Part shown: positions 24,723 to 48,723 of the stretch, piece after piece
Position numbering within the stretch: the stretch's first letter is position 1
Layout: every line of letters begins with the position of its first letter
Assembly: GCA_021810905.1 (NCBI GenBank)
Contig: JAJZQH010000001.1
Coordinates: 248,001 to 312,000, forward strand
Direction: 5' to 3'
DNA length: 64,000 bases
Origin: a bacterium
GTDB taxonomy: Bacteria > UBA10199 > 2-02-FULL-44-16 > JAAZCA01
Made by a program: the position numbers and the translations under genes
Notes under the pieces: generated by a model
The model's input: only the letters and a program-made list of their open reading frames with translations
Database searches by the model: none
Told to the model about the DNA's origin: nothing

Positions 24723-24728
24723 CTCACT

Positions 24729-24810
24729 ATCCCCCTCCTTTGTAAGGAGGGGCAAGGGGAGGTAGACCTTGGTCTACCCCCTCCAACTCCCCCTTACAAA
24801 GGGGGAGGGT
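24729..24810. repeat. CCCCTCCTTTGTAAGGAGGGG palindromic repeat, copy 1
   Basis: Spacer between pntAA and pntAB. The outer arms CCCCCTCCTTTGTAAGGAGG and CCCCTTACAAAGGGGGAGGG and the inner arms GGAGGTAGACC / GGTCTACC give a long nested hairpin. It sits inside the operon and does not end with a T run, so it may adjust transcript stability rather than terminate. Confidence 0.8.
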
Positions 24811-24825
24811 TGACGGGAGGAAATC

Positions 24826-25152
24826 ATGAACCCAGTTGAAGCCGTAGCAATGTCGAGCGCACACCATGGCGCCGTGGACCCGTTTCTCTTCAGCTTTACG
24901 GTCTTCGTGCTGGCCGTGTTCATCGGCTACCATGTGGTCTGGAACGTGACGCCGGCGCTTCACACGCCGCTCATGTCCGTGACCAACGCGATATCCGGTA
25001 TCATTATAGTAGGCGCCATGCTGGCATCCGGACCCAAGCACATAAACTTCGGCACCACATTGGGATTCATCGCCGTTTTCCTCGTGAGCATCTGCGTCTT
25101 CGGAGGCTTCTTCGTAACCCAGAGGATGCTGGCTATGTTCAAAAAGAAATAG
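24826..25152 (+). CDS. pntAB: NAD(P) transhydrogenase, subunit alpha part 2
   Basis: Membrane part of the alpha chain, 108 residues with an N-terminal segment, then about three transmembrane helices ([20 protein letters not shown], the [18 protein letters not shown] helix with the conserved TNAISG motif, and [19 protein letters not shown]) and a basic tail MLAMFKKK. Together with PntB it forms the proton channel. SD GGGAGG precedes the ATG. Middle gene of pntAA-pntAB-pntB. Confidence 0.94.
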
Positions 25153-25160
25153 CATTCGAT

Positions 25161-25248
25161 ATCCCCCCTCCTTTGTAAGGAGGGGGCAGGGGGAGGTAGA
25201 CCTTGATCTACCTCACCCTGCCCTCCCCTTACAAAGGGGAGGGTTTAC
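25161..25248. repeat. CCCCTCCTTTGTAAGGAGGGG palindromic repeat, copy 2
   Basis: Spacer between pntAB and pntB, closely related to copy 1: CCCCCCTCCTTTGTAAGGAG, the inner TAGACCTTGATCTA, then CCTTACAAAGGGGAGGG. Two copies in consecutive spacers of one operon suggest local duplication or independent insertion. Confidence 0.8.
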
Positions 25249-25266
25249 AAGAGGAGACTCCTCACA

Positions 25267-26655
25267 ATGATGACAGCAAATCAGGTCGCTCTCGCATATC
25301 TTGTAGCTTCGGTGCTCTTCATCCTGGCGCTCAAGGGTTTGAGTTCGCCGACCTCCGCGAGGCGCGGCAACGTCTTCGGCATCATCGGCATGGTCATAGC
25401 CGTTGTGACGACCGGCCTCATGGTCCAGAGCTACGGCATGATCATCATAGGTATTGCCGGCGGCGGACTGATCGGCGCGATCATAGCCAAGAAGATAAAG
25501 ATGACCTCCATGCCGGAACTTGTCGCCGCGATCCACTCTCTGGTCGGTATCGCCGCGGTCATGATCGCCTTCTCTGCACTCTACAACCCGCAGGCATACG
25601 GCATCTCCGAGACAGACGTGCTTCCGATGGCCAATCGCATCGAGATGTTCATAGGCGTGATCGTCGGAGCTATCACCTTCACGGGTTCAGTGATCGCGTT
25701 CGGCAAACTGTCCGGCAGGATCAGCAGCGCGCCGGTGAGCTTCAAGGGACAGCACTACCTTAACCTCACGCTGGCTCTCGTGATGGTCGGATGCGGCATC
25801 TGGTTCGCCATGCATCAGAACTGGCCCAGCTTCATCGTCATGACCTCCATCGCGCTCATGCTCGGCGTGCTCATGATCATCCCGATAGGCGGCGCGGATA
25901 TGCCCGTGGTCGTCTCGATGCTCAACTCGTACTCAGGGTGGGCCGCGGTCGGCATCGGATTCACGCTCGGCAACAACATGCTCATCATCGCAGGCTCGCT
26001 TGTGGGCTCCTCGGGCGCAATCCTCTCCTACATCATGTGCAAGGCGATGAACCGCTCGATCATCAACGTGCTCCTGGGCGGATTCGGAACCGCAGGCGGA
26101 ACCGTCGCTGCCGCTGCAGGGGCTGCTGCCCGCACCTACAAGAGCTGCGGCGCAGAGGATGCGGCGTTTCTCATGAGCAACGCGGGAAGCGTTATCATCG
26201 TCCCAGGATACGGGCTCGCGGTGGCGCGCGCCCAGCACGCGCTTCACGAGATGGCAGAACTCCTGCACGAAAAAGGCGTCAAGGTCCGGTACGCGATTCA
26301 TCCCGTGGCAGGCCGAATGCCGGGGCACATGAATGTGCTGCTGGCTGAGGCCGAAGTGCCGTACGATCAGGTCTTTGAGATGGACGAGATCAACAGTGAA
26401 TTCGGTGATACCGACGTCGCACTCGTGATCGGCGCCAACGACATCGTAAACCCCGCGGCCAAGACCGACAAATCGAGCCCGATCTACGGCATGCCGATCC
26501 TCGAAGTCACCAAGGCGCGCACGGTGCTCGTGAACAAGCGCAGCATGGCCACCGGCTACGCTGGCGTGGACAACGACCTCTTCTACATGGACCAGACAAT
26601 GATGGTTTTCGGCGATTCAAAAAAGGTAATCGAGCACATCATTAACGCGCTGTAG
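25267..26655 (+). CDS. pntB: NAD(P) transhydrogenase, subunit beta
   Basis: A 462-residue subunit with eight or nine transmembrane helices (about 1-260) and the NADP(H)-binding dIII domain at the C-terminus (about 285-462). Characteristic are GGADMPVVVSMLNSYSGWAA in the membrane part and VIVPGYGLAVARAQH, HPVAGRMPGHMNVLLAEA and VALVIGANDIVNPAA in dIII. Together with PntAA and PntAB it makes NADPH at the expense of the proton gradient. SD AGGAG; either of the two consecutive ATGs could start it. Confidence 0.96.
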   Translation: MMTANQVALAYLVASVLFILALKGLSSPTSARRGNVFGIIGMVIAVVTTGLMVQSYGMIIIGIAGGGLIGAIIAKKIKMTSMPELVAAIHSLVGIAAVMIAFSALYNPQAYGISETDVLPMANRIEMFIGVIVGAITFTGSVIAFGKLSGRISSAPVSFKGQHYLNLTLALVMVGCGIWFAMHQNWPSFIVMTSIALMLGVLMIIPIGGADMPVVVSMLNSYSGWAAVGIGFTLGNNMLIIAGSLVGSSGAILSYIMCKAMNRSIINVLLGGFGTAGGTVAAAAGAAARTYKSCGAEDAAFLMSNAGSVIIVPGYGLAVARAQHALHEMAELLHEKGVKVRYAIHPVAGRMPGHMNVLLAEAEVPYDQVFEMDEINSEFGDTDVALVIGANDIVNPAAKTDKSSPIYGMPILEVTKARTVLVNKRSMATGYAGVDNDLFYMDQTMMVFGDSKKVIEHIINAL

Positions 26656-30445: not shown

Positions 30446-30574
30446 CCGACCCTCCGTCTCATGCGCTATCGCCGTCATTCCGGCATTTGCACGGGAAAGA
30501 CCCGATAGCCGGGTTTGAGGAAAGTTGCAAGCCGGTAACTATGATGATAGCGGATAAAAAAAATGGAGGGGACC

Positions 30575-32947
30575 ATGAAGACACCGCTTTCCGCAGAGCA
30601 ACTCAGACTGATTGACGCATACTGGCGCGCCGCCAACTACCTCTCGGTCGGCCAGATCTACCTCTACGACAATCCGCTCCTCAAGGAGCCCCTGACGATA
30701 GATCACATCAAGCCGCGCCTGCTCGGACACTGGGGCACCACACCCGGACTCAACTTCATCTACGTGCACCTCAATCGCCTCATCAAGGAGCAGGACCTGA
30801 ATATGATCTATGTCGCGGGCCCTGGACACGGAGGCCCTGCGCTCGTGGCAAACACCTACCTCGAGGGCACCTACAGCGAGTTCTATCCCGATATTTCCCG
30901 CGACGAAGAAGGTATGAAGAAGCTCTTCAAACAGTTCTCGTTCCCGGGAGGGATACCGAGTCACGTGGCTCCCGAGACGCCGGGCTCCATACACGAGGGC
31001 GGTGAACTTGGTTACTCGATCTCGCACGCGTTCGGAGCGGCGTTCGATAATCCGGATCTCATCGTGGCCTGCGTCGTGGGCGACGGCGAGGCTGAGACCG
31101 GTCCGCTGGCAACGGCGTGGCACTCCAACAAGTTTCTCAATCCAGTGCGCGACGGCGCGGTGCTGCCGATACTGCACCTCAACGGCTACAAGATCGCAAA
31201 CCCCACTGTGCTCGCGCGAACCACCGGCGAAGAGCTTGAGGCGCTGATGGTGGGCTACGGATACAAACCCTACTACGTGGATGGCTCCGATCCCATGGCC
31301 ATGCACCAGCGCATGGCTGAAACCCTCGACGAAGTGATAGCGGAGATCAAATCGATCCAGGAAAATGCGCGCAAGTCCGCAAAGCACGCGCGGCCGCGCT
31401 GGCCCATGATAGTGATGCGCACACTGAAGGGATGGACGGGGCCAAAGTCCGTGGACGGACTCAAGACCGAGGGATTCTGGCGCTCGCATCAGGTTCCGTT
31501 TGCGGAGATGCGGGAGAAACCGGAGCACGTAAAACTTCTTGAGAACTGGATGAAGAGCTACAAGCCGGAAGAGCTCTTTGACGATAAGGGATGCATCAGG
31601 AGCGAAATCGCAGAACTTGCGCCAAAGGGAGAGCGGCGAATGGGCGCCAACCCGCACGCAAACGGCGGCATACTGCTGCGCGACTTGAGGATGCCCGACT
31701 TCCGCGAATACGCCGTGGACGTGCCGAAGCCCGGCGGCGTGATTGCCGAGGCCACTCGCGTGATGGGGAAACTCCTGCGCGACGTGATGAAAGAGAACAT
31801 GGAGAGCCGCAACTTCCGAGTCATGGGACCGGACGAGACTGCATCGAACAGGCTGGGCGATCTCTTCGAGGTGACGGATCGCGTGTGGATGGAGCCGACC
31901 ATACCTGAAGACGATCATCTCTCGCCGGGCGGCCGCGTCATGGAGATCCTCTCCGAACATACGTGCCAGGGGTGGCTCGAGGGCTATCTGCTCACCGGAA
32001 GGCACGGGCTCTTCTCGTGCTACGAGGCGTTCATCCACATCATCGACTCCATGTTCAACCAGCATGCCAAGTGGCTCAAGACTGCGCGTCACGATATCCC
32101 GTGGCGCAGGCCGATCGCCTCACTCAACTATCTGCTGACGTCGCACGTCTGGCGGCAGGATCACAACGGCTTCAGCCACCAGGACCCGGGGTTCATCGAT
32201 CACGTAGTGAACAAGAAGGCGGACGTGGTGCGCGTATATTTTCCGCCGGACGCGAATTGCCTGCTCTCGGTGACGGACCACTGCCTGCGTTCGCGCGACT
32301 ACGTCAACGTCATCGTTGCGGGCAAACAGCCGCAGCAGCAGTGGCTTAACATGGACGCGGCGATCAAGCACTGCACTTCCGGCATCGGTATCTGGGAATG
32401 GGCCAGCAGCGATGAGGGCTCCGAGCCCGACGTGGTGATGGCGGCTTGCGGCGACGTGCCGACCCTTGAGACGCTTGCAGCGGTGGAGCTCTTGCGCGAG
32501 CACGTACCGGAGCTCAAGATACGCGTGATCAACGTTGTGGATCTCATGACGCTGCAGCCGCATGAGGAGCATCCGCACGGCATGACGGACAAGAATTTCG
32601 ACGCGCTCTTCACGACGGACAAGCCGATCATCTTCGCGTACCATGGGTATCCGTGGCTCATCCATCGTCTGACCTATCGCAGGAAAAACCACGGAAATCT
32701 GCACGTGCGCGGATACAAGGAAGAAGGCACGACCACGACTCCTTTCGACATGTGCGTGCTCAACGACCTGGACCGCTTTCACCTCATGGCAGACGTGGTC
32801 GACAGAGTTCCCAAGCTCGCATCGAGGGCGGCGTACATAAAGCAGTTCGTGAGGGACAGGCTCGTGGACCACAAACAATACATCGAACGCTACGGCGAGG
32901 ACATGCCCGAGATCCGCGCCTGGCAGTGGCGCGGAAAACAGCAGTGA
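30575..32947 (+). CDS. xfp: Phosphoketolase
   Basis: Thiamine-diphosphate enzyme that splits xylulose 5-phosphate (and perhaps fructose 6-phosphate) with phosphate into acetyl phosphate and a shorter sugar phosphate. The 790-residue protein has [19 protein letters not shown], the [20 protein letters not shown] segment and the ThDP-binding [15 protein letters not shown], the usual XFP signature. The ATG at 30575 sits behind GGAGGG. An acetate kinase gene lies downstream with only a repeat between, so the pair forms an ATP-yielding acetate route. Which sugar phosphate is preferred cannot be told by eye. Confidence 0.95.
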
Positions 32948-32956
32948 ACCCTTGAG

Positions 32957-33038
32957 TGTCATTGCGAGCCCGAGAGGGCGAAGCAATCCCCTGAACCAAC
33001 ACGGGATCGCCACGTCGCTTGCGCTCCTCGCGATGACA
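32957..33038. repeat. TGTCATTGCGAG...CTCGCGATGACA palindromic element
   Basis: An 82-bp element between xfp and ackA with 12-bp ends TGTCATTGCGAG and CTCGCGATGACA (11 of 12 complementary) and inner GAAGCAATCCC / GGGATCGCCACGTCGC. Similar ends are seen in dispersed palindromic repeats of many bacteria. It reads through in frame with ackA, which makes the ackA start ambiguous. Confidence 0.8.
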
Positions 33039-33047
33039 CAATTTGAA

Positions 33048-34223
33048 ATGAATCATCTCCGCCATATACTATGCCTCAACAGCGGGTCGTCGTCGCTGAA
33101 GTTCGCCCTGTACAGGGTGGCGAAGGACGACGAGGCGCTGCTCGCCAGGGGTGCGGTCGAACGCATAGGACTCGACGACGGTCGTCTCTGGTTCAAGCTC
33201 GCCCGCCGCAATTTGCAAAGCGCGGAGAACGGAGTTTTTCCGAACCATGCCGCCGCCGTGGAAGCGACGTTTGCGAGGCTCGACGGCCTGCACCTTCCGC
33301 TTCCCGACGCGATCGGACATCGCGTAGTGCACGGAGGCGCGGAATATTCGGCGCCCGCTCCGGTCGATGCGAAGCTCCTTCAAACGCTCAAGCAGCTCGT
33401 ATCCTTCGCGCCGCTTCACCTGCCGAGCGAAATAGTCTGCATCGAGGCGGTCGCGGCAAAATATCCATCGCTTCCTCAGGTTGCCTGTTTTGACACCGCA
33501 TTTCATCGCAGGATGCCGGAAATCACGCAGCGTTTTCCTCTTCCGCGCGCACTCTGGAATGAGGGCGTCAGGCGCTACGGATTTCATGGCCTCTCGTACG
33601 AGTACATAATGGACGCTGTCGGCGCGCGCCCGCCATCCCGGCTTTTGATCGCCCACCTTGGAAACGGCGCCAGCATGGCGGCGGTGCAGGACGGCATTCC
33701 GCTCGATACCACGATGGGCTTCACGCCCGCCGGCGGTTTCATGATGGGCACGAGGACCGGCGATCTCGATCCTGGGATACTCGTCCATCTCATGCGTGAG
33801 CGCGGGATGGATGCGGCTCAGATTGAAACTCTCCTGAATAATGAATCGGGACTCATGGGCGTATCGGGCATCAGCCCTGACATGAAGACCCTGCTCGATG
33901 AGCGAGCTCTGAAGCCCGATGCCGCGCAGGCAGTGGAGATGTTCTGCTATCATGCGCGAAAGACAATAGGCGCGCTGGCCGCGGCACTCGGCGGGTTGGA
34001 TATGTTCGTCTTCACTGGAGGCATCGGAGAGAGAGCAGCGCCGGTACGCTCGATGATCTGCCAGGGCCTCACGCACCTGGGAATTGAAATTGATGAAGAA
34101 AAAAACCTGACGCACGCGGACACGATCAGTTCAGCAGAGAGCGCATGCGTCGTCAGAGTGATACCCACGAACGAGGATCTCGTAATCGCCAGACACACCA
34201 ATGACCTGATCTCGAACAACTAG
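33048..34223 (+). CDS. ackA: Acetate kinase
   Basis: Makes acetate and ATP from acetyl phosphate. The 391-residue protein has the ASKHA core: LCLNSGSSSLKF, GHRVVHGG, HLPSEIVCIEA, FDTAFHRRMPE, RRYGFHGLSYEY, HLGNGASMAA and DTTMGFTPAGGFMMGTRTGD. MNHLRHIL at 33048 is chosen as the start because the upstream in-frame residues are encoded by a dispersed repeat; no good SD is visible. It lies downstream of phosphoketolase and shares its stop (CTAG) with the convergent GHKL gene. Confidence 0.93.
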   Translation: MNHLRHILCLNSGSSSLKFALYRVAKDDEALLARGAVERIGLDDGRLWFKLARRNLQSAENGVFPNHAAAVEATFARLDGLHLPLPDAIGHRVVHGGAEYSAPAPVDAKLLQTLKQLVSFAPLHLPSEIVCIEAVAAKYPSLPQVACFDTAFHRRMPEITQRFPLPRALWNEGVRRYGFHGLSYEYIMDAVGARPPSRLLIAHLGNGASMAAVQDGIPLDTTMGFTPAGGFMMGTRTGDLDPGILVHLMRERGMDAAQIETLLNNESGLMGVSGISPDMKTLLDERALKPDAAQAVEMFCYHARKTIGALAAALGGLDMFVFTGGIGERAAPVRSMICQGLTHLGIEIDEEKNLTHADTISSAESACVVRVIPTNEDLVIARHTNDLISNN

Positions 34224-37483: not shown

Positions 37484-38596
37484 CTAATTCCGCAAGGGTG
37501 TCAAGCCGTTCATTCTGCGCAAGGCGTGCAGCGGGTCGCCCGCCACATTCCACCCGATCTTCTCTCCAATAGCCCCTATCCTGCGGGCAAGGCAGTCACG
37601 GGACTTGCCGGCATCTTCGTCGACGCATGGCTTGGAATCGTAAAGAAGATAATCGCGCCTGTATCGCACAGGCGTGAGATTCGGCATTACGACGTTCGCC
37701 CCGGCACGCAACCCCAACTCCCTTCCCTGCGAATGTAACGCCTGCAGAGCGGTCGTCGAAGCGATGTTGACGTCCTTGAGGATAATACGCGAAAGGGCGA
37801 TCATCATGAGCGACATATCGAGAAGCCCGCCGCCAGCGTCTATGGATGGAGTTGCCTCACGGCCCAGCGGCGTATCGTGATGATACAGGTACGGCCCCAT
37901 GCCGATCATGTCCACATCGATATCGCGAAAGAAGAGTATGTCCCGTGCAAGGTCTTCCGTCGTCTGAAAAGGAAGTCCGATCATGACGCCGGTGCCAACC
38001 TGGTATCCTATATCCTTGAGTTCCCTCAGGCAGCGCAGGCGCTCGTCATAATCGTGATCCGCGGGATGGAGGCGGGCGTACAGTTCGCGGTTGGAAGTTT
38101 CGATGCGAAGCAGATATCGCCGCGCACCAGCTTCAAGCCATCTGCGGTAGGTGGAGGAATCCTGCTCGCCTGCCGACAGCGTGATTCCCAGGCTGTCGCC
38201 GGTCATATCGTTGATTTCGCGGACCATATCTTCGATCAGTTCGACGAATGCCGGATCCCTGCGCTCTCCAGACTGCAGCACAATGGAGCCATAGCCGTTA
38301 TCATAGGCAAACCGCGCGCAGGCTATCACCTCGTCGTTACTCATCGTATAGCGCGAGACGTTTCCGGAGCGCCTGATTCCGCAGTAGAGGCAATCCTTCG
38401 CGCAGACGTTGCTGACCTCGATGAGTCCCCTGAAATAGGCGAGGGCGGAGACCTCCCTCCGCTTGACGTCATAGGCGCGCGCATAAATCAGATCGAGTTC
38501 TTCACGATTTTCGATTCGCAGCAGCTGAGCGAGCAGGGCAGGATCAGGACGGTCTTCATGCTCGATGCGATGAAGGATTGTCTGCAGGGATTCCAT
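37484..38596 (-). CDS. hydE: HydE-type radical SAM protein ([FeFe]-hydrogenase maturase)
   Basis: A 370-residue radical SAM enzyme. The SAM-cluster cysteines are C65, C69 and C72 (NVCAKDCLYCGIRR). VLQSGE, SAGEQDSSTYRRWLEAGA, RRYLLRIETSNRELY and GTGVMIGLPFQTTEDLA follow HydE closely, and RAGANVVMPNLTP matches its C-terminal barrel. HydE acts with HydF and HydG in building the H-cluster. None of these, nor a [FeFe] hydrogenase, is in the window. Related PylB and BioB are less similar by eye. A possible second cluster near the C-terminus (KPCVDEDAGKSRDC) is seen but unproven. Confidence 0.87.
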   Translation of the reverse strand: MESLQTILHRIEHEDRPDPALLAQLLRIENREELDLIYARAYDVKRREVSALAYFRGLIEVSNVCAKDCLYCGIRRSGNVSRYTMSNDEVIACARFAYDNGYGSIVLQSGERRDPAFVELIEDMVREINDMTGDSLGITLSAGEQDSSTYRRWLEAGARRYLLRIETSNRELYARLHPADHDYDERLRCLRELKDIGYQVGTGVMIGLPFQTTEDLARDILFFRDIDVDMIGMGPYLYHHDTPLGREATPSIDAGGGLLDMSLMMIALSRIILKDVNIASTTALQALHSQGRELGLRAGANVVMPNLTPVRYRRDYLLYDSKPCVDEDAGKSRDCLARRIGAIGEKIGWNVAGDPLHALRRMNGLTPLRN

Positions 38597-38711: not shown

Positions 38712-40070
38712 TCACCCGATTTTCCTGTGTTTCCCTGATGCGTCGTCCCCATTAATCTCTCTCAATATTTTGTTATAATTTTCTCGCAAAAGGCGTGTTA
38801 ACAGAACCTCGAGAGTTTCATGAAGTTTAGCTTTTTCTATGCTCTGCACTACGATTCCGGTGAATATCTCCATGAATCGAGCCCTGTCCGCGACTTGTAC
38901 GGGAAAAATCTGCTGTCGGTCGAGAAACGACGCTATCTCTGCCTGAAGCGGAGAGTTCCATTTTTGTGCTTCACTCATCATTGTGAAACTCGCAGCCGTA
39001 CCAGCGGACATAAACCCTGTAATCGCATCCTCTATGAGGTCTTCAATGATGCTCTGCGCAGCGTGCTCCGCAGCAGTCCTGGAATCTACGCCTGACAGCT
39101 GCAGATCGTTCTTGAGAAATTCAAATGTGCGCCACTCGTCGTGCAAATCAAAATTCAAAGGACGGACAAGAGATATATCCTCCTCAGGTCCTTCGAAACT
39201 GAATTTGGTCAAATCCCAATTATAATGCATCCGAGACATCCGCTCTCTCAAGCCGAGCCCGATTATCATCCTGTCCATAAGCGCCGTACACAGACTTGTT
39301 CTTTTCTTTTCGAAGGACTTATCATGATACCACGGAAAACGGAGCAACTGTTTATTGATGTCAAGCGCTCGGGCGATGGCAGCGCGGTAAGGCCAGTACT
39401 CCGCAGACCATGGGTCGTCTTCTCGCAGATCCTCGAAGAGTTGCGCGACATCGACTCTGTCCATTTCGCCTGAATCATCCAAGGACTTGTCTGACCTGCT
39501 TTGTCCGCGCGATACCCCTGACTCGGGGATTTCATCCGTTGACGAACGGCCAAAGCCCTTATCGACCTTTTCAAAACGATTCACATATATGGCAAAGGAT
39601 GCAGCGTTTATCCTGACGGCAATCTCCGAGACCTTGGATTCCATGCGATCAGCGACTATTGCGTGAGCGAATGCAGCGATGCCGCCCATAATGGCTTTAT
39701 GCGCTACCTCGTCAGCCGGATCGAATGCCCCGGCAGCATCCACGACAACAGATTTTGCACCTGCCCGGTCGGCCCGCAGCAAGGCATGATAGACGGGCAC
39801 GGCAATCCGCTCTCTCAGGGTGAAATTGACCTCGTCACGCACCTGTCTGGAAAAATAGACGCTCCGCGTCTTTCCCTGCGAATTCTTCTCGGCAGCTTCG
39901 GCATCGCTGCGCGCGGATTCAGATGGATGATCTGATACAAAAAATTCAACAACTGCATCGGCATTGAGCTCTTCCATACCGGCATCCGTGGCAAAAATTC
40001 CTAGGTCGGACGTGTCGGAACGCAGGCCCAACGCAAGAGAACATGTGGAAGACGGTATATTCATAGCCAT
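38712..40070 (-). CDS. Hypothetical protein, 452 residues
   Basis: I do not recognise this protein. It has no signal peptide or membrane segment. The first 150 residues read like an alpha/beta domain (SLALGLRSDTSDLGIFAT, SVVVDAAGAF, EIAVRINAASFAIYVNRF), followed by an acidic linker (DSGEMDRVDV) and a mostly helical C-terminal half (YWPYRAAIARALDINKQ, HAAQSIIEDLIEDAITGF). SYN-like codon usage is normal for the window. The ATG at 40070 is preferred to an upstream TTG. It stands alone between hydE and the cold-shock gene and may belong with the other large orphan proteins of the window, though sequence similarity is not clear. Confidence 0.6.
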   Translation of the reverse strand: MAMNIPSSTCSLALGLRSDTSDLGIFATDAGMEELNADAVVEFFVSDHPSESARSDAEAAEKNSQGKTRSVYFSRQVRDEVNFTLRERIAVPVYHALLRADRAGAKSVVVDAAGAFDPADEVAHKAIMGGIAAFAHAIVADRMESKVSEIAVRINAASFAIYVNRFEKVDKGFGRSSTDEIPESGVSRGQSRSDKSLDDSGEMDRVDVAQLFEDLREDDPWSAEYWPYRAAIARALDINKQLLRFPWYHDKSFEKKRTSLCTALMDRMIIGLGLRERMSRMHYNWDLTKFSFEGPEEDISLVRPLNFDLHDEWRTFEFLKNDLQLSGVDSRTAAEHAAQSIIEDLIEDAITGFMSAGTAASFTMMSEAQKWNSPLQAEIASFLDRQQIFPVQVADRARFMEIFTGIVVQSIEKAKLHETLEVLLTRLLRENYNKILREINGDDASGKHRKIG

Positions 40071-40204
40071 CAAGACACCCTGATCCAACTTGAGACTCTT
40101 ATTACCTACGATATCGGCAATGCCTGGAATATGTTGCGTATTTTTTTATGTTTTTTATGCAATCACACATATGGCATAATTAGTATTTTTTTGTAAAAGT
40201 AAAA

Positions 40205-40649: not shown

Positions 40650-41417
40650 TCACCGAGCCTTCTCGTCAAGGCGGGCAAGCAACCTGAGCATTCCGTCGAG
40701 AGTCGTCATAGGATGAGGAGGACAACCAGGTATGAAGAGATCGACGGGCAAAAGCGATGTAACTCCGTCGCTGGCCTCAGAGTGCCCTGCGTACGGCCCG
40801 CCTGCGATGGCGCAGGCGCCCGATGCTATGACGATCTTTGGTCCGGGCACTGCGTCATAGGTCTTCTGAAGCGCCAGCCGCATGTTCTTGGTCACCGGAC
40901 CCGTGACCAGCAGCCCGTCAGCGTGCCTCGGGGATGCCACAAACTGGATGCCGAAGCGCCCCATGTCATACGCCAGAGTCGATAGAACGTTCACGTCCGC
41001 CTCGCAGGCGTTGCACCCGCCGGCGCTGACCTCGCGCAGCCTGAGCGAGCGGCCGAAGATGCTTTGCATGCGCTGATCCAGCGCCTTCACCTTCGGAACC
41101 ATGCCGGCGGTCACCAACGATTCGCGCCCGGTCGACGCGAGCCGGTATTCCTGAGTGAAGACGATAGCGCCTTTGGGGCACGCACGAGCACACTCGCCGC
41201 AGAAAATGCAACGGCCCAAGTCGATGCGCGCGCCGCGATCTCCAGGCAAAAGAGCTCCGAACGGACAGCCCTCTTTGCATTCGCGGCATCCGCGCGGACA
41301 GAGCGCCGCGTCGATTCGCGGCAGGCCGCGGAAACGATCCAGCAGCTCCGGCTCGCGCCTCGGATATGCCATCGTTCGATAGCCCTGTTTTATCCTCGCA
41401 CGTATGATGTCGAACAT
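40650..41417 (-). CDS. Fused ferredoxin / NuoB-like subunit of the hydrogenase-related complex
   Basis: One 255-residue polypeptide joins a two-cluster ferredoxin domain (HycF/NuoI-like: C40, C44, C47, C51 and C70, C73, C76, C80) to a small-subunit domain (HycG/NuoB-like: C135 and C138 in GGCNACEAD, C202 in GACAIAGGP and C232 in PGCPPHP). The four NuoB-domain cysteines that hold the proximal [4Fe-4S] cluster are all kept, so electrons can reach the large subunit. The first ferredoxin motif has C-x3-C-x2-C-x3-C spacing, slightly different from usual. The ATG at 41417 is 7 bp after the large-subunit stop. Last gene of the seven-gene operon. Confidence 0.88.
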   Translation of the reverse strand: MFDIIRARIKQGYRTMAYPRREPELLDRFRGLPRIDAALCPRGCRECKEGCPFGALLPGDRGARIDLGRCIFCGECARACPKGAIVFTQEYRLASTGRESLVTAGMVPKVKALDQRMQSIFGRSLRLREVSAGGCNACEADVNVLSTLAYDMGRFGIQFVASPRHADGLLVTGPVTKNMRLALQKTYDAVPGPKIVIASGACAIAGGPYAGHSEASDGVTSLLPVDLFIPGCPPHPMTTLDGMLRLLARLDEKAR

Positions 41418-41424
41418 AAATGCC

Positions 41425-42897
41425 TCAGAGGTCGTGGCCGCAATACGAAAGATTGAAGCTCTTGTTGCACAGCGGGAAATCGGAGATCTGTCCTCCACGC
41501 AACGACATTGCCAGTCCTGCCCAGTTATGAAACGAGGGATCGACGACCTTATAGGTCGAAAAACGCCCTTGCTCATCTGTGAAGGCCACATGGCAGATCT
41601 CGCCGCGCCACCCCTCGACCAGCGAAACCACGAGGCTGTCCGGTTGCAGCGGACGTTCGTCCGCGCAGATCGAACCGCCGGTCAGCGCCTGGGCCTGTTC
41701 CTGTATGAATTCCGCAGAGCGTTTGATCTCCAGCCAGCGCACGAACGCCCTCGCAAAGACGTCTCCTGAATTCCAGCTGGAAACGGGAATATTGAAGAAG
41801 CGGTAAATTCCATACGGGTAGTCATGCCTGACGTCCCGCTCCGCTCCGCACGCGCGGGCCGCCGGGCCGACGAGGCCGAGCGCATCGCAGGTCTCAGGAG
41901 ATATCTCTCCCGTCTCCTCGAAGCGCGCCAGCACGGAAGGCGATTTCCAGAGCAGCTCCACCGCGGATTCGAGATCTTCCATGGTTTTTGCCAACCGCTG
42001 CACGAGCTGCTTCGCTCGTTCGTCATCCAGATCGAAGTGGACTCCTCCAAGGCGAAGGAGACCGCGGCCGAAGCGGCTGCCGCACAGCAGCGCCGTGAGG
42101 TTCAAGATATCGCCGCGGATGCGGCCGCAATATGAGGCCGTGGGAAGAAACCCGACGTCGCCGGCCAGCGCGCCGAGATCGCCGGCGTGATTGGCCATGC
42201 GCTCGAGCTCAAGAGCGATGCCGCGGATTACCTGCGCGCGAATAGGCACCTCGATTTCCGCAAGCGATTCCACGGTGCGGAAGTAGGCGAATGAATGTCC
42301 GGCAGTCGTATCTCCGGCAAGCGTTTCCATATAATGCGCCGAGCGCGGATTCGGTCCGCGGATCAAGGCGCGCTCCACGCCGCGATGTTGGAAGCCGAGC
42401 GCTATCTCAAGGTGCATGACGTCCTCGCCGTGGCACTGGAAGCGGAAGTGGCCAGGCTCTATCACGCCTGCATGCACGGGCCCCACCGCGACCTCGTGCA
42501 CCTCGTCGCCTTCAACGCGGAAGAAATCGCCTACGGCGGGAAGCTCTGCGGCAGAATATCGCACGGGTTTGAGACAAGGGTGGCCCAGCGGAATGACGCC
42601 CCATTGCTCCGCAATCTCGCGCTCGAAGAGATGCGCCTGGGGGCAATCAGGCGTAAGGGACGGATAGCTCTTCTCAACCGTCATCGCTACGAGCGAAAGA
42701 TGGCCTGCGGCGTCGTCGCCGATAACAGCTACGAGCCTGAGCCTGCCCTCGTCGGCGGGGGTACAAAAGAGAGAGCAGATCCTCCTGCCGGAAGCGACAG
42801 CGCCGGTAACAGCATCGCGAAAATCTATGGCTGAAAGGAGAGGAATCTCGTCTTCCGCAGCAACTTCGCCGTTATGAAGCGTGAGTGGTGCACTCAT
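41425..42897 (-). CDS. Large (NuoCD/HycE-like) subunit lacking the NiFe ligand cysteines
   Basis: A 490-residue fusion of a NuoC-like domain (about 1-115, with FEREIAEQWGV) and a NuoD/hydrogenase-large-subunit domain. The L1 motif, which in HycE is R-x-C-G-x-C, is LAGDTTAGHS here (about 193-202), with no cysteine. The C-terminal L2 motif, normally DPCxxC, is FNLSYCGHDL, keeping only C486; C477 lies nine residues earlier. HRGVE and EIEVP remain. A NiFe centre is therefore unlikely, which matches the Ehr class. The start overlaps the upstream HyfF-like stop (ATGA). Confidence 0.9.
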   Translation of the reverse strand: MSAPLTLHNGEVAAEDEIPLLSAIDFRDAVTGAVASGRRICSLFCTPADEGRLRLVAVIGDDAAGHLSLVAMTVEKSYPSLTPDCPQAHLFEREIAEQWGVIPLGHPCLKPVRYSAAELPAVGDFFRVEGDEVHEVAVGPVHAGVIEPGHFRFQCHGEDVMHLEIALGFQHRGVERALIRGPNPRSAHYMETLAGDTTAGHSFAYFRTVESLAEIEVPIRAQVIRGIALELERMANHAGDLGALAGDVGFLPTASYCGRIRGDILNLTALLCGSRFGRGLLRLGGVHFDLDDERAKQLVQRLAKTMEDLESAVELLWKSPSVLARFEETGEISPETCDALGLVGPAARACGAERDVRHDYPYGIYRFFNIPVSSWNSGDVFARAFVRWLEIKRSAEFIQEQAQALTGGSICADERPLQPDSLVVSLVEGWRGEICHVAFTDEQGRFSTYKVVDPSFHNWAGLAMSLRGGQISDFPLCNKSFNLSYCGHDL

Positions 42898-44375
42898 CGT
42901 ACCCCTCCCACTGCCGCCGCGGCCGCACGCAACATCTCGCCCAGCGAAGATGGAACGATCATGCCCAGCGCAAGAACGGCGACTGCCAATACAGCCGGGG
43001 GAATCAAGGCCAGAGCAGCCTCGCGGCCGCGCGTTTCATTCGATTCGTCACCGCCCTGCGCCATTCGAAGCATCGTGACCGCCATTCCAGCGAACGCGAT
43101 CGCGAGCAATACGAGGTAAAGGACGGCAATAAAAGATCTCCCTTGGCCGAGGGCTCCGGAGAGAATCGTAAATTCGCTGACAAACGTACCGAAGGGAGGC
43201 GAACCCGTGATCGCAAAAAGCCCGGCGACCCACAATATGCCGGTCATCGGAAGCCGCCCGAGCAATCCGGTCACTTCCGAAGCCCGCTTGGTGCGATAGA
43301 AACTCAGGATATTGCCCGCCGCGAAGAATAGCATCCCCTTTGCCAGCGAGTGGTTTACGGCGTGAAACATCGAGCCGAACGTGGCGATACCGCCGATGCC
43401 AACACCCACGGCCAGGATACCCATGTGTTCCACGCTCGAGTAGGCCAGCATGCGCTTGTAGTCAGCCTGACCCACTATCAGCGCCGCCGCTACCGCCATC
43501 GAGACCAGCCCAAGCAGAAGGAGAAGACCCTGCCCGAACTCTGCGAATCCTGCAGCGACAAGCACCTGCTGCGAGCGAAGTATCGCGAGAAAGGAGCAGT
43601 TGAGCAGCGCGCCCGAGAGCAGCGCAGATACAGCGGACGGCGCTTCGCTGTGGGCGTCTGGAAGCCACGTGTGCATCGGCGCAAGGCCCATCTTCGTCCC
43701 GTAGCCGACCAGCAGGAGAACGAACGCGGCCTTGAGCCACACCGCATTCAGCAATCCGCCCCGCGCCTGGTCGATCATCTGCGCGAGAAGCATCGAGCCG
43801 CCGACGCCGCGCGAGGGTAACGCCACGGCGAGGAAGAAATTGCCGAGCAATGCCAAGGCTATACCTACGGAACAGATGAGCAGATATTTCCACGCTGCCT
43901 CAAGCGAGCGGCGGTGACGGTGAAAGAATATCAGCGGCGCACTCGCGAGAGTGGTGGCCTCAACCGCCACCCACAGAATTCCGAATTGATGGCTGACGCA
44001 TACGAGCGTCATCGTTGACAGGAACAGAAGCATGCATCCGCAGAAGGTAGCCTCCGGCGCATTGGTGAACAGGAAACCCTCCTCGAAATCCTTCTTCTTC
44101 TCAGCTGACTCCTTGCGAAAACTTACGCGATAGAACGACGCCAGCAGAAAGAGAGCGCTAGCGATGGAGAGAAAGAGAAGGCCAGGCGCATCCATGGCGA
44201 GCCAACCGGAAAGCGCGGGTTTGGGAAAGCCGCACCAACAGAGTGCCGTCATGCACGCATGCGCAGCTGCAGTGACGATCAGCAGCGTACGGCAGACCCA
44301 GGGCTTCCTGATGAAAAAAACCATGGACCCGATCAAAGCGGGTATGAGAATCAATGCCAGAATCATCTGTCCCAA
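42894..44375 (-). CDS. HyfF/NuoN-like antiporter-type membrane subunit
   Basis: A 493-residue membrane protein with about 14 helices. The core shows the antiporter motifs: the lysine in YGTKMGLAPMHTWLPDAHSE, the broken-helix region AVSALLSGALLN, KRMLAYSSVEHMGI and HAVNHSLAKGMLFFAAGN. These residues carry the proton path in Complex I and Hyf. It is the second of two large antiporter-like subunits in the operon. Its stop overlaps the large-subunit start (ATGA) and it begins 13 bp inside the end of the HyfE-like gene, a tight coupling. Confidence 0.9.
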   Translation of the reverse strand: MGQMILALILIPALIGSMVFFIRKPWVCRTLLIVTAAAHACMTALCWCGFPKPALSGWLAMDAPGLLFLSIASALFLLASFYRVSFRKESAEKKKDFEEGFLFTNAPEATFCGCMLLFLSTMTLVCVSHQFGILWVAVEATTLASAPLIFFHRHRRSLEAAWKYLLICSVGIALALLGNFFLAVALPSRGVGGSMLLAQMIDQARGGLLNAVWLKAAFVLLLVGYGTKMGLAPMHTWLPDAHSEAPSAVSALLSGALLNCSFLAILRSQQVLVAAGFAEFGQGLLLLLGLVSMAVAAALIVGQADYKRMLAYSSVEHMGILAVGVGIGGIATFGSMFHAVNHSLAKGMLFFAAGNILSFYRTKRASEVTGLLGRLPMTGILWVAGLFAITGSPPFGTFVSEFTILSGALGQGRSFIAVLYLVLLAIAFAGMAVTMLRMAQGGDESNETRGREAALALIPPAVLAVAVLALGMIVPSSLGEMLRAAAAAVGGVR

Positions 44376-45016
44376 TCCGTAAGCGCCGACAGCTGACCGA
44401 CGTCGATCGCGTCGTACGCCCGATGAATGTGAAAGATAGCTACGCCCATCACCAGCACTGCGAGGAATGCGTCGATCAAAATACCCAGTTCAACCAGCAA
44501 TCCCGCCTGTATCTCCATTGCAAAACCGAAGGCGAAGATTCCGTTCTCCAACACGATGTAGCCCAACAGCTGCATGAGCGCCGTGCGCCGTGTAACGATG
44601 AGCAGCATGCCGGTGAACATCGTGGCCAGCGCTGCGGGCAGAGCGAGAGGAGAAGCAGTAGCGCCCGGCAACGGCGCACGAGATGCAATCCAGAGAGCTA
44701 TGCCGAGAACGGCCATGCCCGCGACGATCGATGCGGAATACGAGAGCAGTGGAGCACCCTCGCGCCTAACGCCGGTGCCGCGCAGAGAACGATAGAGCAG
44801 CCACGGGAAAGCGATTCCCTTGAGTGCGGCGCTCGCTGCGGCGATCCCAGTCTCGCGCAGCGTAGGCACGCCGCCGCTCGACAAGATCGGCAACAGGCTC
44901 AGGATCGCGCCCTGCATCGCGGCGATACGGATGCACGCGCGCACCCTGCCCGTGCCGAGCAGCATGAGATTCTGCAGCAACAGAACGACCAGTATGAGTC
45001 CGGCCCACGAAATCAC
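44363..45016 (-). CDS. HyfE/NuoK-like membrane subunit
   Basis: A 217-residue protein with about seven transmembrane helices. The C-terminal part carries the NuoK-like VLENGIFAFGFAM with a membrane glutamate and LVELGILIDAFLAVLVMG with a second one, as in HyfE. It sits between the HyfC-like and HyfF-like genes; its stop overlaps the HyfF start and it starts three bases after the HyfC stop. Proton-channel role inferred from the family. Confidence 0.85.
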   Translation of the reverse strand: MISWAGLILVVLLLQNLMLLGTGRVRACIRIAAMQGAILSLLPILSSGGVPTLRETGIAAASAALKGIAFPWLLYRSLRGTGVRREGAPLLSYSASIVAGMAVLGIALWIASRAPLPGATASPLALPAALATMFTGMLLIVTRRTALMQLLGYIVLENGIFAFGFAMEIQAGLLVELGILIDAFLAVLVMGVAIFHIHRAYDAIDVGQLSALTDWDR

Positions 45017-45019
45017 GCA

Positions 45020-45934
45020 TCACCTCATTGAAAACGAAAGCATCAGCGCAAGCAGAGCCAGTGCCCCGGCCCCGGTAAGCAGCTGCGGCACGCGCACGAG
45101 CCGCAGCCGCGCCATCATCGATTCAGTTATTCCGACGGCCACGGCCAACCCGAGCATGCCCCCGACGCGCAGCGCAAGGGACTCAGGCGGCGTGGCGCCC
45201 GCAGGAAGCATTATTCCAACGATCAGCGAACCGAAGAGCCATAATTTCAGGGAAGCGCTCCACGTGATAAACGCGAAGTCGACTCCGCCGTGATCCAGCA
45301 CCATCACTTCATGGATCATCGTGAGTTCGAGGTGCGTGGTCGGATCGTCCACCGGGATGCGGCAATTCTCCGCGAGGAGCACGACGAACATGGCAGCGAT
45401 TGCCAGCACGAGCGTGGGGCCAGACGTCGACCAGTGCGCCGCGCCGTATTGACCGTAAATTCCCGCGAGCGAAGCGCTCCCCGCTTCTCGCGCCAGAGCC
45501 GCAAGCGCGAGCAAGAGCGCCGGCTCCGCCATCGCGGAATACGCGGCTTCGCGCGAAGCGCCCATTCCCTCAAAGGCAGATCCGGTATCCAGGGCCGCGA
45601 GTATCGTGAAGAACCTCGCGAGGCCGAAGAGATAGGCAAAGACAATCAGGTCGCCCTGGAACGAAAAGACCGCCGGCACGGTGCCGCACGGCATAAACAA
45701 CGCAGCGGTGAAGGCCGCGGCCGCGCCCGTCGCCGGGCCGGCAATGAAGATCCAGCTCGTAGTGCGGCTGATGGCTGCGCCCTTGTGCATCAGCTTCCAG
45801 AGATCATAATAGGTCTGCAAAAGCGGCTGTCCCTTGCGTCCGGCTACGACGGCCTTGGTGCGGTTGATCACTCCCAATAGCAGCGGCGAGAGAACAAGCG
45901 CCAATGCGATGTTTACGGCTGCGAACATTGTCAT
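45020..45934 (-). CDS. HyfC/NuoH-like membrane subunit
   Basis: A 304-residue subunit with about eight helices. It has NRTKAVVAGRKGQPLLQ (the quinone-side loop in NuoH), YYDLWKLMHKG, ENCRIPVDDPTTHLELTMIH and the acidic DHGGVDF loop, the last two closely as in HyfC/HycD. It anchors the peripheral arm to the membrane. The ATG at 45934 overlaps the stop of the upstream NuoL-like gene by four bases; an in-frame GTG at 45952 is less likely. Confidence 0.9.
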   Translation of the reverse strand: MTMFAAVNIALALVLSPLLLGVINRTKAVVAGRKGQPLLQTYYDLWKLMHKGAAISRTTSWIFIAGPATGAAAAFTAALFMPCGTVPAVFSFQGDLIVFAYLFGLARFFTILAALDTGSAFEGMGASREAAYSAMAEPALLLALAALAREAGSASLAGIYGQYGAAHWSTSGPTLVLAIAAMFVVLLAENCRIPVDDPTTHLELTMIHEVMVLDHGGVDFAFITWSASLKLWLFGSLIVGIMLPAGATPPESLALRVGGMLGLAVAVGITESMMARLRLVRVPQLLTGAGALALLALMLSFSMR

Positions 45935-47913
45935 CGTCCCCCGAAGCTCCACGCCAGCAGCGAAATCAACGCCACGGCTATATAAAGGATATAGAGATGC
46001 ACGTTACCGTGCTGGATCACGCGGAAGCGCGCGAGCCACGACGCCACGGTTGCAAAGAGCGGCTCGAACACATCTTCCCTGGAGAAATCGCGCGCGTGCG
46101 ATGAGAACGACCCTTTTTCAGGGAAGAGCCCATCTACTCCTTCCGCGTGCGAGCGGACGCGCAGAAGCGCGCCGAATGCGCTCGTAAGCGGCTGGGCAAA
46201 GGACGACGCCGTGTACTGCATGCGCGTGGTGGGCGCCGCATATCCGCAGTCCCACGTCACGGTCCGCTTAACCTCGCGCCCGGAGAGGAGGCGCCGCCTG
46301 ACGATCAATGCCGCGGCAGCGACCGCAATGAGCGCGGCGGAGGCGGCTACGAGCATCGTCAGTATCGGCACAGCGCCAGCAAGCGCTGACGCATCGATCG
46401 CACCTGCTGTAAACGAATTGACCGCGGGCGCGAGCATCCTGGGAACAAGCGGCGCTCCGAGCCCTATCGCTATGCAGCCCGCCGCGAGAATCGTCATGGG
46501 CGCGCGCATGGCGAGCGGCGGCTCCGTGCTTGAAGAGGCGGCGTCGCTTCTGGGTTCGCCGAGAAAGATCGTGCCAAAGGCCTTTGCGAAGCATGCAGCC
46601 GCAAGCCCTCCTATGAGCGCCAGCGACGCGATGACCGCGAGGCCCGGCATTGCGCTGAAGACCGTAGCACCCGGAGCGCCGAGCAACGCGAACGCCGCCA
46701 GGTAAATCAGGAATTCGCTCACGAAACCATTGAGCGGAGGAAGGCCGGATATCGCGGCGGAACCCACGAGGAACGAAGCGGCCGTGCGCGGCATCCTCTT
46801 TATCAAACCGCCCAGCCGGTCGATCTCGCCGGTGCCCGCAGCGCGGATCACTGCACCCGCGCCGAGGAAGAGCAGGCCCTTGAAGACGGCGTGATTGATC
46901 ACGTGCAGAAGCGCTCCGCCAAGGGCCAGCGCCGCGACAGCGGGCATGCCGCGCGAAACGCCCACAAGCCCGAGCCCCAGGCCCAGTGCGATAATCCCTA
47001 TGTTCTCGACGCTGTGATAAGCGAGCAACGCCTTGAGCTCGTGCTGCGCCAGCGCGGAGAGCACGCCCATGACTCCGGAGACTGCGCCCACAGCAATCAG
47101 CGTCCATCCCCACCACTCCGCGGGAGCGCCCCATAGCGAAAGCATTCGCATGAGGCCGTAGATCCCGGTCTTGATCATGACGCCCGACATTACGGCCGAG
47201 ACGTGAGACGGGGCCGCAGGGTGCGCTTCGGGAAGCCAGACGTGCATCGGCATGAAGCCCGCCTTTGTGCCGAATCCTACGAGCGCCAGCAAAAACAGCG
47301 CCCCGGCCGAAGGCGCCAAAGAGGCAGCGCCCCGCCACTGCTCGAATTCCATGCTGCCGGTCCTCATCGCCATGAGCGCAAAGAGCGCAAGAAGAAACGC
47401 CGTGCCGATGTGCGTGGCAACGAGATAGGTGATGCCGGCGCGCCGCACGCGCTCGCTCGCATCGTCATGAGTGACCAGGAAAAACGACGAGAGCGCCATC
47501 ACTTCCCAGGAGATCAGGAAGAGCATGCCGTTGCGCGCGATCACTACCATCGCCATGCTCGCCGCGAGTATGCCGAAGAAAAAAGGCGATGCGCCCGCGC
47601 CATCCCTTCCGTGGCCGCGAAGATAGGAATAGCCGTAGACAGCCGACAGGGCGGTCAGCAGAAATATCGGGATGAGAAACAGCGCCGAGAGCGCATCGAG
47701 GCCCACGGAGAAGGATGCGAACGGTATCTGCCATGCATGGCTGAACGAGGAGGACTCGCCGCTGACGAGCGCCCGCGCCGCCGGTATCGAGCCTACGGAT
47801 GCGCCGGCCACCGCCAATGCTGCGGCAATTAAGGCGGGAGCACGCCCCCTCCCTACGATCGAAGGTACGCCTGAAAGCGCAAGTAGCGCGATCGATACGA
47901 ACAGAAGCGCCAT
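45931..47913 (-). CDS. HyfB/NuoL-like antiporter-type membrane subunit
   Basis: The largest subunit of the complex, 660 residues and about 16 helices. It shows the antiporter signature: EVMALSSFFLVTHD with a membrane glutamate, GTKAGFMPMHVWLPEAHPAA with the key lysine, LLAYHSVENIGII and HVINHAVFKGLLFLGAGA. The C-terminal part carries a hydrophilic region (KRTVTWDCGYAAPTTRMQ), as in HyfB and HycC. It follows the HTH-EIIA gene without a gap and overlaps the HyfC-like gene. Confidence 0.92.
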   Translation of the reverse strand: MALLFVSIALLALSGVPSIVGRGRAPALIAAALAVAGASVGSIPAARALVSGESSSFSHAWQIPFASFSVGLDALSALFLIPIFLLTALSAVYGYSYLRGHGRDGAGASPFFFGILAASMAMVVIARNGMLFLISWEVMALSSFFLVTHDDASERVRRAGITYLVATHIGTAFLLALFALMAMRTGSMEFEQWRGAASLAPSAGALFLLALVGFGTKAGFMPMHVWLPEAHPAAPSHVSAVMSGVMIKTGIYGLMRMLSLWGAPAEWWGWTLIAVGAVSGVMGVLSALAQHELKALLAYHSVENIGIIALGLGLGLVGVSRGMPAVAALALGGALLHVINHAVFKGLLFLGAGAVIRAAGTGEIDRLGGLIKRMPRTAASFLVGSAAISGLPPLNGFVSEFLIYLAAFALLGAPGATVFSAMPGLAVIASLALIGGLAAACFAKAFGTIFLGEPRSDAASSSTEPPLAMRAPMTILAAGCIAIGLGAPLVPRMLAPAVNSFTAGAIDASALAGAVPILTMLVAASAALIAVAAAALIVRRRLLSGREVKRTVTWDCGYAAPTTRMQYTASSFAQPLTSAFGALLRVRSHAEGVDGLFPEKGSFSSHARDFSREDVFEPLFATVASWLARFRVIQHGNVHLYILYIAVALISLLAWSFGGR

Positions 47914-48600
47914 CTAGGCACCTCCCCCGCCGACGCGCGATTCGGCCTGGCGCGCGAGGTTCAGGATCTCGTCTCGCGAGGCCTCGCGGAGTATTGCGTC
48001 TTTAAAGCCGGCATCGTGCATGACGAATGCGAGCCTGGAGAGCAGATGCAGATGCGTGCGCACGGTGGGGCTGATGATGGTGAATAGGACGTTGACCGGC
48101 TTACCGTCGATCGCGTCGAAATCGATCGGTTTTTCCAGGAAGCAGAGGGTTATGCCCGGACGCTCCACGTCGAGCACTATAGGGTTTCGCGCGTGCGGAA
48201 TGGCGATCCCGTCGCCGATGCCCGTGGAGCCTAGCGCCTCGCGGGCCAGCAGGACCTTGTGGAGAAAACCGCGGTCCATGTCGTCGGGAAGCCTCAGCAT
48301 GTCGACGACCGACTTGAGCGCGGAGGATTTATCCGAACCGGCGACGCGGTAGAATACCCCCCCTGCCTCCAGCGCATCGGCAAAGGAGGGCAGCGGCCCG
48401 CGTTCGTCCTCCGCAGGATTTGCGACTTCGTCGGCGACCGGCAAGCGTTTGGCAGCAGCCCACTCGAGAATCTCGGGCTTGCTGAAGCGATACTGCTCCT
48501 TCAGGCGATAAGAAGGGATCTCTCCCTTCCCTGCCCATCTATAGATCGTCTTTTCGGAGACATTCAGGAGTGCTGCAACATCTTTGACAGTCAACCTCAT
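47914..48600 (-). CDS. HTH (excisionase/MerR-type) – PTS EIIA fusion regulator
   Basis: A 228-residue protein. The N-terminal HTH_17 domain (1-52: MRLTVKDVAALLNVSEKTIY, then RWAGKGEIPSYRLKEQYRFS) is joined by a Pro/Glu linker to an EIIA-2 domain (about 70-225) with the phospho-histidine H136 in GIAIPHARNP. This type of protein is likely a transcription regulator whose activity follows the phosphorylation state of the PTS. It is the first gene of the hydrogenase-related operon and its stop abuts the HyfB-like start, so it may control that operon. ATG at 48600 has GAGG six bases upstream. Confidence 0.87.
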   Translation of the reverse strand: MRLTVKDVAALLNVSEKTIYRWAGKGEIPSYRLKEQYRFSKPEILEWAAAKRLPVADEVANPAEDERGPLPSFADALEAGGVFYRVAGSDKSSALKSVVDMLRLPDDMDRGFLHKVLLAREALGSTGIGDGIAIPHARNPIVLDVERPGITLCFLEKPIDFDAIDGKPVNVLFTIISPTVRTHLHLLSRLAFVMHDAGFKDAILREASRDEILNLARQAESRVGGGGA

Positions 48601-48723
48601 ATATCGCCTCATCAATTCTTAATTAGCACCAGCTTTGGACAATTCAGGACAGGACAGGTCTTTTGTCTAAGGTATTCTCAAACAGATTGCAAAAAAATTT
48701 ACAAAAAAAGTTGGGATCAAGCG

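Follow-up and report, generated by a model that had tools for sequence, protein, structure and literature searches.

An Ech-hydrogenase-related (Ehr) operon without NiFe-ligating cysteines, headed by an HTH-EIIA regulator gene, in a bacterium of the UBA10199 lineage

The DNA analysed here is a stretch of 64,000 nucleotides (the window) from a bacterium of the GTDB lineage UBA10199 (assembly GCA_021810905.1, contig JAJZQH010000001.1, positions 248,001 to 312,000). It carries an operon for an Ech-hydrogenase-related (Ehr) complex, consisting of seven genes on the minus strand (40650-48615), each overlapping the next or lying no more than 7 nt from it (Table 1). A first-pass annotation made from the sequence alone had described the genes, their order, strand and motifs correctly, and the family scans agree with it. 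The leading gene of the operon, which was not singled out there, encodes a helix-turn-helix (HTH) domain joined to an EIIA domain of the phosphotransferase system (PTS), the phosphorylatable His lying within IAIPHAR. Translation of EhrB probably starts at the internal ATG at 45934. Matches to EhrS in the PDB were MbhJ, HycG and HycF, and the membrane subunits correspond to HyfB, HyfC, HyfE and HyfF of E. coli. Unlike the E. coli Hyf and Hyc systems, the seven operon genes include no HyfA- or HyfD-like gene, maturation protease or Hyp gene; an NADH module is likewise absent from them.

Table 1. Genes of the ehr operon and altered motifs of EhrL, with positions in the window
Feature	Position	Strand	Basis
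HTH_17 + PTS EIIA (PtsN-like) regulator, first operon gene	47914..48615	-	Pfam HTH_17 2.1e-15, PTS_EIIA_2 1.5e-27
EhrA, HyfB-like antiporter-type subunit, 660 aa	45931..47913	-	NCBIfam hydrogenase 4 subunit B 4.7e-184, under equivalog cut-off
EhrB, HyfC (NuoH)-like membrane anchor	45020..45952	-	Pfam NADHdh 2.9e-29
EhrC, HyfE-like membrane subunit	44363..45016	-	NCBIfam hydrogenase 4 membrane subunit 3.1e-24
EhrD, HyfF-like antiporter-type subunit; start codon uncertain	42894..44375	-	NCBIfam hydrogenase 4 subunit F 1.5e-110
EhrL, NuoCD/HycE-like large subunit, 490 aa	41425..42897	-	Pfam Complex1_49kDa 4.8e-39
L1 motif remnant A194-G-D-T-T-A-G-H201 (hydrogenases: CGxC)	42295..42318	-	alignment
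L2 motif remnant N478-K-S-F-N-L-S-Y-C-G-H-D-L490 (hydrogenases: DPCxxC)	41428..41466	-	alignment
EhrS, HycF-like 2x[4Fe-4S] ferredoxin domain fused to HycG-like proximal-cluster domain, 255 aa	40650..41417	-	Pfam Fer4, Oxidored_q6

The large subunit was aligned as a set of 98 EhrL proteins together with HycE, HyfG, two NiFe-bearing relatives and nine NuoD proteins. Group 4 [NiFe] hydrogenases carry four cysteines in the motifs RxCGxC (L1) and DPCxxC (L2). Because the gap-free alignment with HycE and HyfG puts A194, T197, S484 and G487 at these positions, all four NiFe-ligating cysteines are, by alignment, gone from the window EhrL. The first-pass annotation had reported the loss of three of the four; the loss stands and the count does not, C486 aligning with a Ser between the third and fourth ligands. 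The position of A194 is held by Ala in 91 homologues, Ser in five and Cys in one, that of T197 by Thr in 82, Ser in 13, and Ala and Val in one each; Ser and Gly occupy the positions of S484 and G487 in 96 of 96 homologues. Since the 98 homologues have the replaced motifs and the gene order in common, the NiFe-less site is not a product of chance. Two outcomes named beforehand as contrary to a NiFe-less complex were not observed: no alignment, whether to HycE, HyfG or NuoD, placed four cysteines at the NiFe positions, and no large subunit carrying them was found nearby or elsewhere in the host genome (2.98 Mb, 99.5% complete), which gave no match to PF00374 (NiFe large subunit) or to the maturation protein HypD (PF01924), the latter being matched in the E. 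coli control.

Two cysteines near the C-terminus of EhrL, C477 and C486 (window 41440-41469), are characteristic of the clade (Cys in 89/98 and 75/98, respectively) and lie outside the NiFe positions. C486 was rejected as a residual ligand, being out of register and replaced by Ala in 20 homologues. EhrL ends in DL, corresponding to the DR which closes NuoD of complex I, and the C-terminal extension of HycE and HyfG is absent.

By sequence, the closest relative of EhrL with a solved structure is HycE, the large subunit of the E. coli formate hydrogenlyase (7z0s_E, 3.4e-48), and the same chain was the best fold match (8.9e-31, TM 0.85) of a single-chain model of EhrL (pLDDT 87, pTM 0.89). The hydrogenase proton-donor Glu (HycE E193, MbhL E21; PMC9474812, PMC7684303) is kept as E147 in the alignments to HycE and MbhL, and the canopy Arg (HycE R478) is kept as R431, which is invariant in a 46-sequence alignment; the position of the HycE canopy residue Asp529 is taken by N482. 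Within the altered motifs, D196, H201, N478, K479, F481, S484, Y485, G487, D489 and L490 are invariant or almost invariant. Given this new set (including D196, N478, K479, F481, S484, Y485 and G487), a conserved operon and more than 570 confirmed homologues, the altered motifs are, on the sequence record, under purifying selection for a new function and not in decay.

Assignment of the operon to the Ehr class, as first proposed, is supported by its gene content, by the loss of the NiFe ligands in the 98 homologues and by phylogeny; the class is already established and the operon is an additional member. Hydrogenase-4-like membrane subunits, EhrL and EhrS are encoded together, as in the published gene set ehrABCDLS (PMC6688271), and EhrL falls in a clade (100/100) with the protein of Geobacter argillaceus, the clade adjoining HycE/HyfG in the sampled tree. 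The EhrL of G. sulfurreducens, whose ehr genes are GSU0739-GSU0745 (PMC7894505), was absent from this tree. Geobacter Ehr has the same gene set and no NiFe ligands, but two HyfB-like genes, ehrA-1 and ehrA-2, where the window has a single ehrA (PMC7894505, PMC13194489). Ehr was first described in Geobacter (PMC7894505, PMC6688271, PMC3569383), and the class is traced to Coppi 2005 and Marreiros et al. 2013 in the citing passages of PMC6688271, PMC12342949 and PMC10284858. Its members are described as mostly without NiFe ligands and their function as unknown (PMC10284858, PMC12342949, PMC6349859), and links to formate metabolism have been proposed (PMC7894505).

At least 574 relatives were confirmed among 84,980 species genomes; those listed include Geobacter, Geomonas, Geothrix, Planctomycetota, Verrucomicrobiota, Omnitrophota, Elusimicrobiota, Spirochaetota, Gemmatimonadota and Chloroflexota. 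The window EhrL pairs with one family-mate (G003; 99/85) apart from its other class-mates, which hints at horizontal transfer of the operon. The first branch of the clade is formed by a divergent EhrL (L051 and L018, G026; 36-41% identity) which has ISGD for IAGD and the C-terminus FNLSYSGNDL. A second, divergent ehr-like operon stands right behind the first on a Verrucomicrobia contig (L093, 12287-19919), its EhrL being 36% identical to that of the window.

The predicted electron path through EhrS is complete. All eight ferredoxin cysteines (C40, C44, C47, C51, C70, C73, C76 and C80) are present in the register of HycF/HyfH, and those of the proximal cluster (C135, C138, C202 and C232) follow the CxxC...C...C pattern of HycG/HyfI, unlike the tandem CC of NuoB. 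These columns are kept across the homologues, most of which also have the fused ferredoxin-NuoB small subunit. In the HyfB-like subunit, E137, K217, K294, K345 and E400 are conserved among homologues, K217 and K294 being replaced by Leu and Gln in E. coli HycC, and the HyfF-like subunit keeps E139, K163, K228, K307 and K346. The earlier statements that the proximal cluster, both ferredoxin clusters and the antiporter lysines remain were thus borne out. The HyfC-like subunit has conserved E-channel residues (E135, E143, E195, D202, E209 and E215) and two histidines specific to the Ehr clade (H207 and H214). Since the antiporter and E-channel residues are conserved, ion pumping by Ehr is plausible, and the complex would couple a redox reaction to ion translocation. 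About 20 loci (e.g. L072, L074, L086 and L089) carry a second hyfB, giving three antiporter-like subunits compared with two in the window.

The surroundings of the operon were surveyed by clustering 3132 flank open reading frames from the 98 loci, and the HTH-EIIA gene was the only frequent partner. It occurs in 47 of the 98 loci, at the operon head, between or behind the genes or, in two loci, divergently beside them (a few hits being partial), and is the same-strand head gene in 32 of the 69 loci whose upstream sequence reaches 900 nt or more. At least eight phyla are represented: Planctomycetota, Verrucomicrobiota, Omnitrophota, Thermodesulfobacteriota, Spirochaetota, Fibrobacterota, Gemmatimonadota and Myxococcota. 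The next two flank clusters (17 loci each) were rejected as partners; they coincide in position with the HTH-EIIA gene, nearly always on the other strand, and appear to be antisense frames of it. Among 60 relatives and the host, five full-length regulator homologues had more than 40% identity, all at ehr operons. The phospho-acceptor motif IPH is kept in most homologues, with divergent motifs in several verrucomicrobial ones, and inspection of the host reading frames revealed a phosphorelay locus, rpoN-hpf-ptsN-hprK-EIIA-HPr-PtsI. Upstream of the regulator, a sigma-70 scan remained at chance level, no -24/-12 site was seen by inspection, and the leader RNA fold was not unusual (z = -1.3). The literature searched held no mention of the HTH-EIIA/ehr link, for Geobacter Ehr or otherwise, which is not proof of its being unreported. 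The HTH-EIIA protein may set ehr transcription according to the phosphorylation state of the PTS, and the conserved leader gene makes such control testable.

Queries with FdhA, HydA/B/F and POR against all 98 loci matched only at one (L046), where a divergent NuoF/NuoG-like pair with a weak FdhA/HydA match adjoins a second, oppositely oriented NuoD homologue. In the host genome, three POR-type proteins were found, together with a group A [FeFe] hydrogenase of the HydABC type (NuoE/NuoF-like partners and HydF) and a formate dehydrogenase (FDH); enzymes producing ferredoxin are therefore available. In the gene for the FDH alpha subunit (L141, G000:C10:42716-43990), which adjoins a divergent selB-like gene, a TGA codon stands in frame where selenocysteine is expected. 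HydE, an [FeFe]-hydrogenase maturase, is encoded at 37484-38596, some 2 kb away from the ehr genes; the [FeFe] hydrogenase and HydF themselves lie far off, on contig C10. HydE was rejected as an Ehr component, no HydE homologue being found beside any other ehr operon. An open reading frame of 458 aa between HydE and the operon (38712-40088) gave no Pfam or NCBIfam match. The window also contains genes for a proton-translocating transhydrogenase (PNT alpha, 4TM, beta) and a phosphoketolase-acetate kinase pair (23610-26655 and 30563-34223).

Based on these data, Ehr is best read as a ferredoxin-driven ion pump with its acceptor in the remodelled EhrL cavity, an account which we consider probable, though well short of certain. 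Electrons from reduced ferredoxin (or a partner enzyme) would enter the two [4Fe-4S] clusters of EhrS, pass to the proximal cluster and reduce an acceptor in the cavity; protonation via E147 and the HyfC E-channel would then power the export of H+ or Na+ by HyfB and HyfF. In this host, oxidation of ferredoxin with ion export is more likely than ferredoxin reduction driven by the proton-motive force, because PORs and an [FeFe] hydrogenase are present and no haem-copper oxidase (COX1) was detected in the genome. Several observations weigh against the pump account. No acceptor or catalytic partner is conserved beside the operon in the 98 loci, so the acceptor has no support from gene context, which does not decide among the mechanisms considered here. 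POR did not co-occur significantly with Ehr in the relatives, the role of ferredoxin as donor being assigned by domain homology only; among 45 class-mates none of the Fisher tests was significant (COX1, p = 0.16; [FeFe] hydrogenase, p = 0.38; POR, p = 1.0). COX1 is found in 10 of the 17 Ehr-bearing class-mates, and since some carriers have haem-copper oxidases the direction of Ehr may differ between hosts. Residues 476-490 and 137-141 of EhrL were modelled with low confidence in the single chain, so that any cavity geometry read from the model is tentative. Finally, one paper calls Ehr simply nonfunctional (PMC13194489).

The first alternative is a complex I-like ferredoxin (or FDH):menaquinone oxidoreductase with a displaced quinone site, which we regard as unlikely. 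Ehr shares its superfamily and fold with complex I (NuoB/NuoCD), in which NiFe cysteines are also absent; EhrL matches NuoCD by fold, and the host also encodes a separate complex I, with a single NuoD paralogue (C9). The selenocysteine FDH of the host would suit such a role, and published proposals include an FDH-linked simplified chain with quinone as a possible acceptor (PMC6349859). Both residues of the quinone headgroup site are replaced, however, Nqo4 His38 by I146 in 98/98 and Tyr87 by G195 in 97/97 EhrL sequences, and the proximal cluster is of the hydrogenase type. In some genomes with Ehr, no complete pathway for quinone biosynthesis could be found (PMC6349859), and no FDH gene lies near the operon in any locus, the one weak match (L046) lying beside the oppositely oriented NuoD homologue noted above.

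Ranking after it, and improbable as well, is operation in reverse, in which the proton-motive force would drive the endergonic reduction of ferredoxin, to serve CO2 fixation or other reductions at low potential. Ehr occurs in Nitrospira (PMC10284858, PMC12342949) and Methylacidiphilum (PMC6688271), and its abundance is higher in G. sulfurreducens grown on formate, for which reverse electron transport was suggested (PMC7894505); the oxidases of the class-mates agree with this direction. The host, by contrast, lacks a detectable COX1 and has fermentative traits (phosphoketolase, acetate kinase and the [FeFe] hydrogenase).

Very unlikely is a polysulfide or sulfane-sulfur reductase with the proximal cluster itself as catalyst. 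The model for it is MBS, the membrane-bound sulfane-sulfur reductase of Pyrococcus (6U8Y), a solved NiFe-less relative which also lacks quinone ligands, takes electrons from ferredoxin and has antiporter-like pumps (PMC7684303); its chain 6u8y_L was among the PDB matches. MBS needs a proximal-cluster motif three residues shorter than that of the membrane-bound hydrogenase MBH, with one iron lacking a Cys ligand (PMC7684303), whereas EhrS has the hydrogenase-length motif and aligns without gaps to MbhJ and HycG (MbsJ was not in the alignment). In MBS, moreover, two of the NiFe cysteines remain and the proton-donor Glu is missing; EhrL has none of these cysteines but retains the Glu. That Ehr is a degenerate hydrogenase relic, in keeping with the vanished metal site and with the term nonfunctional applied to the Geobacter complex, is scarcely credible given the purifying selection described above.

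A wider proposal is put forward tentatively, as possible but doubtful: Ehr would form a class of its own among redox-driven ion pumps, with a cavity (E147, D196, H201, N478, K479, S484 and Y485) that reduces or oxidises something other than H+, quinone or polysulfide, and its expression would be gated by the PTS phosphorelay via a dedicated HTH-EIIA regulator, which has stayed with the operon in at least eight phyla. Ehr is found in many bacterial phyla, and its function is still called unknown in papers up to 2025. The residue comparison narrows the question: by its residues the cavity is neither a hydrogenase site, nor a standard quinone site, nor a sulfur site of the MBS type, and the proton-coupling parts are intact. 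If each antiporter-like subunit pumps, the ion-to-electron ratio would vary within one family. The HTH-EIIA leader gene offers a genetic handle, through PTS mutants and reporter fusions, on when Ehr is used.

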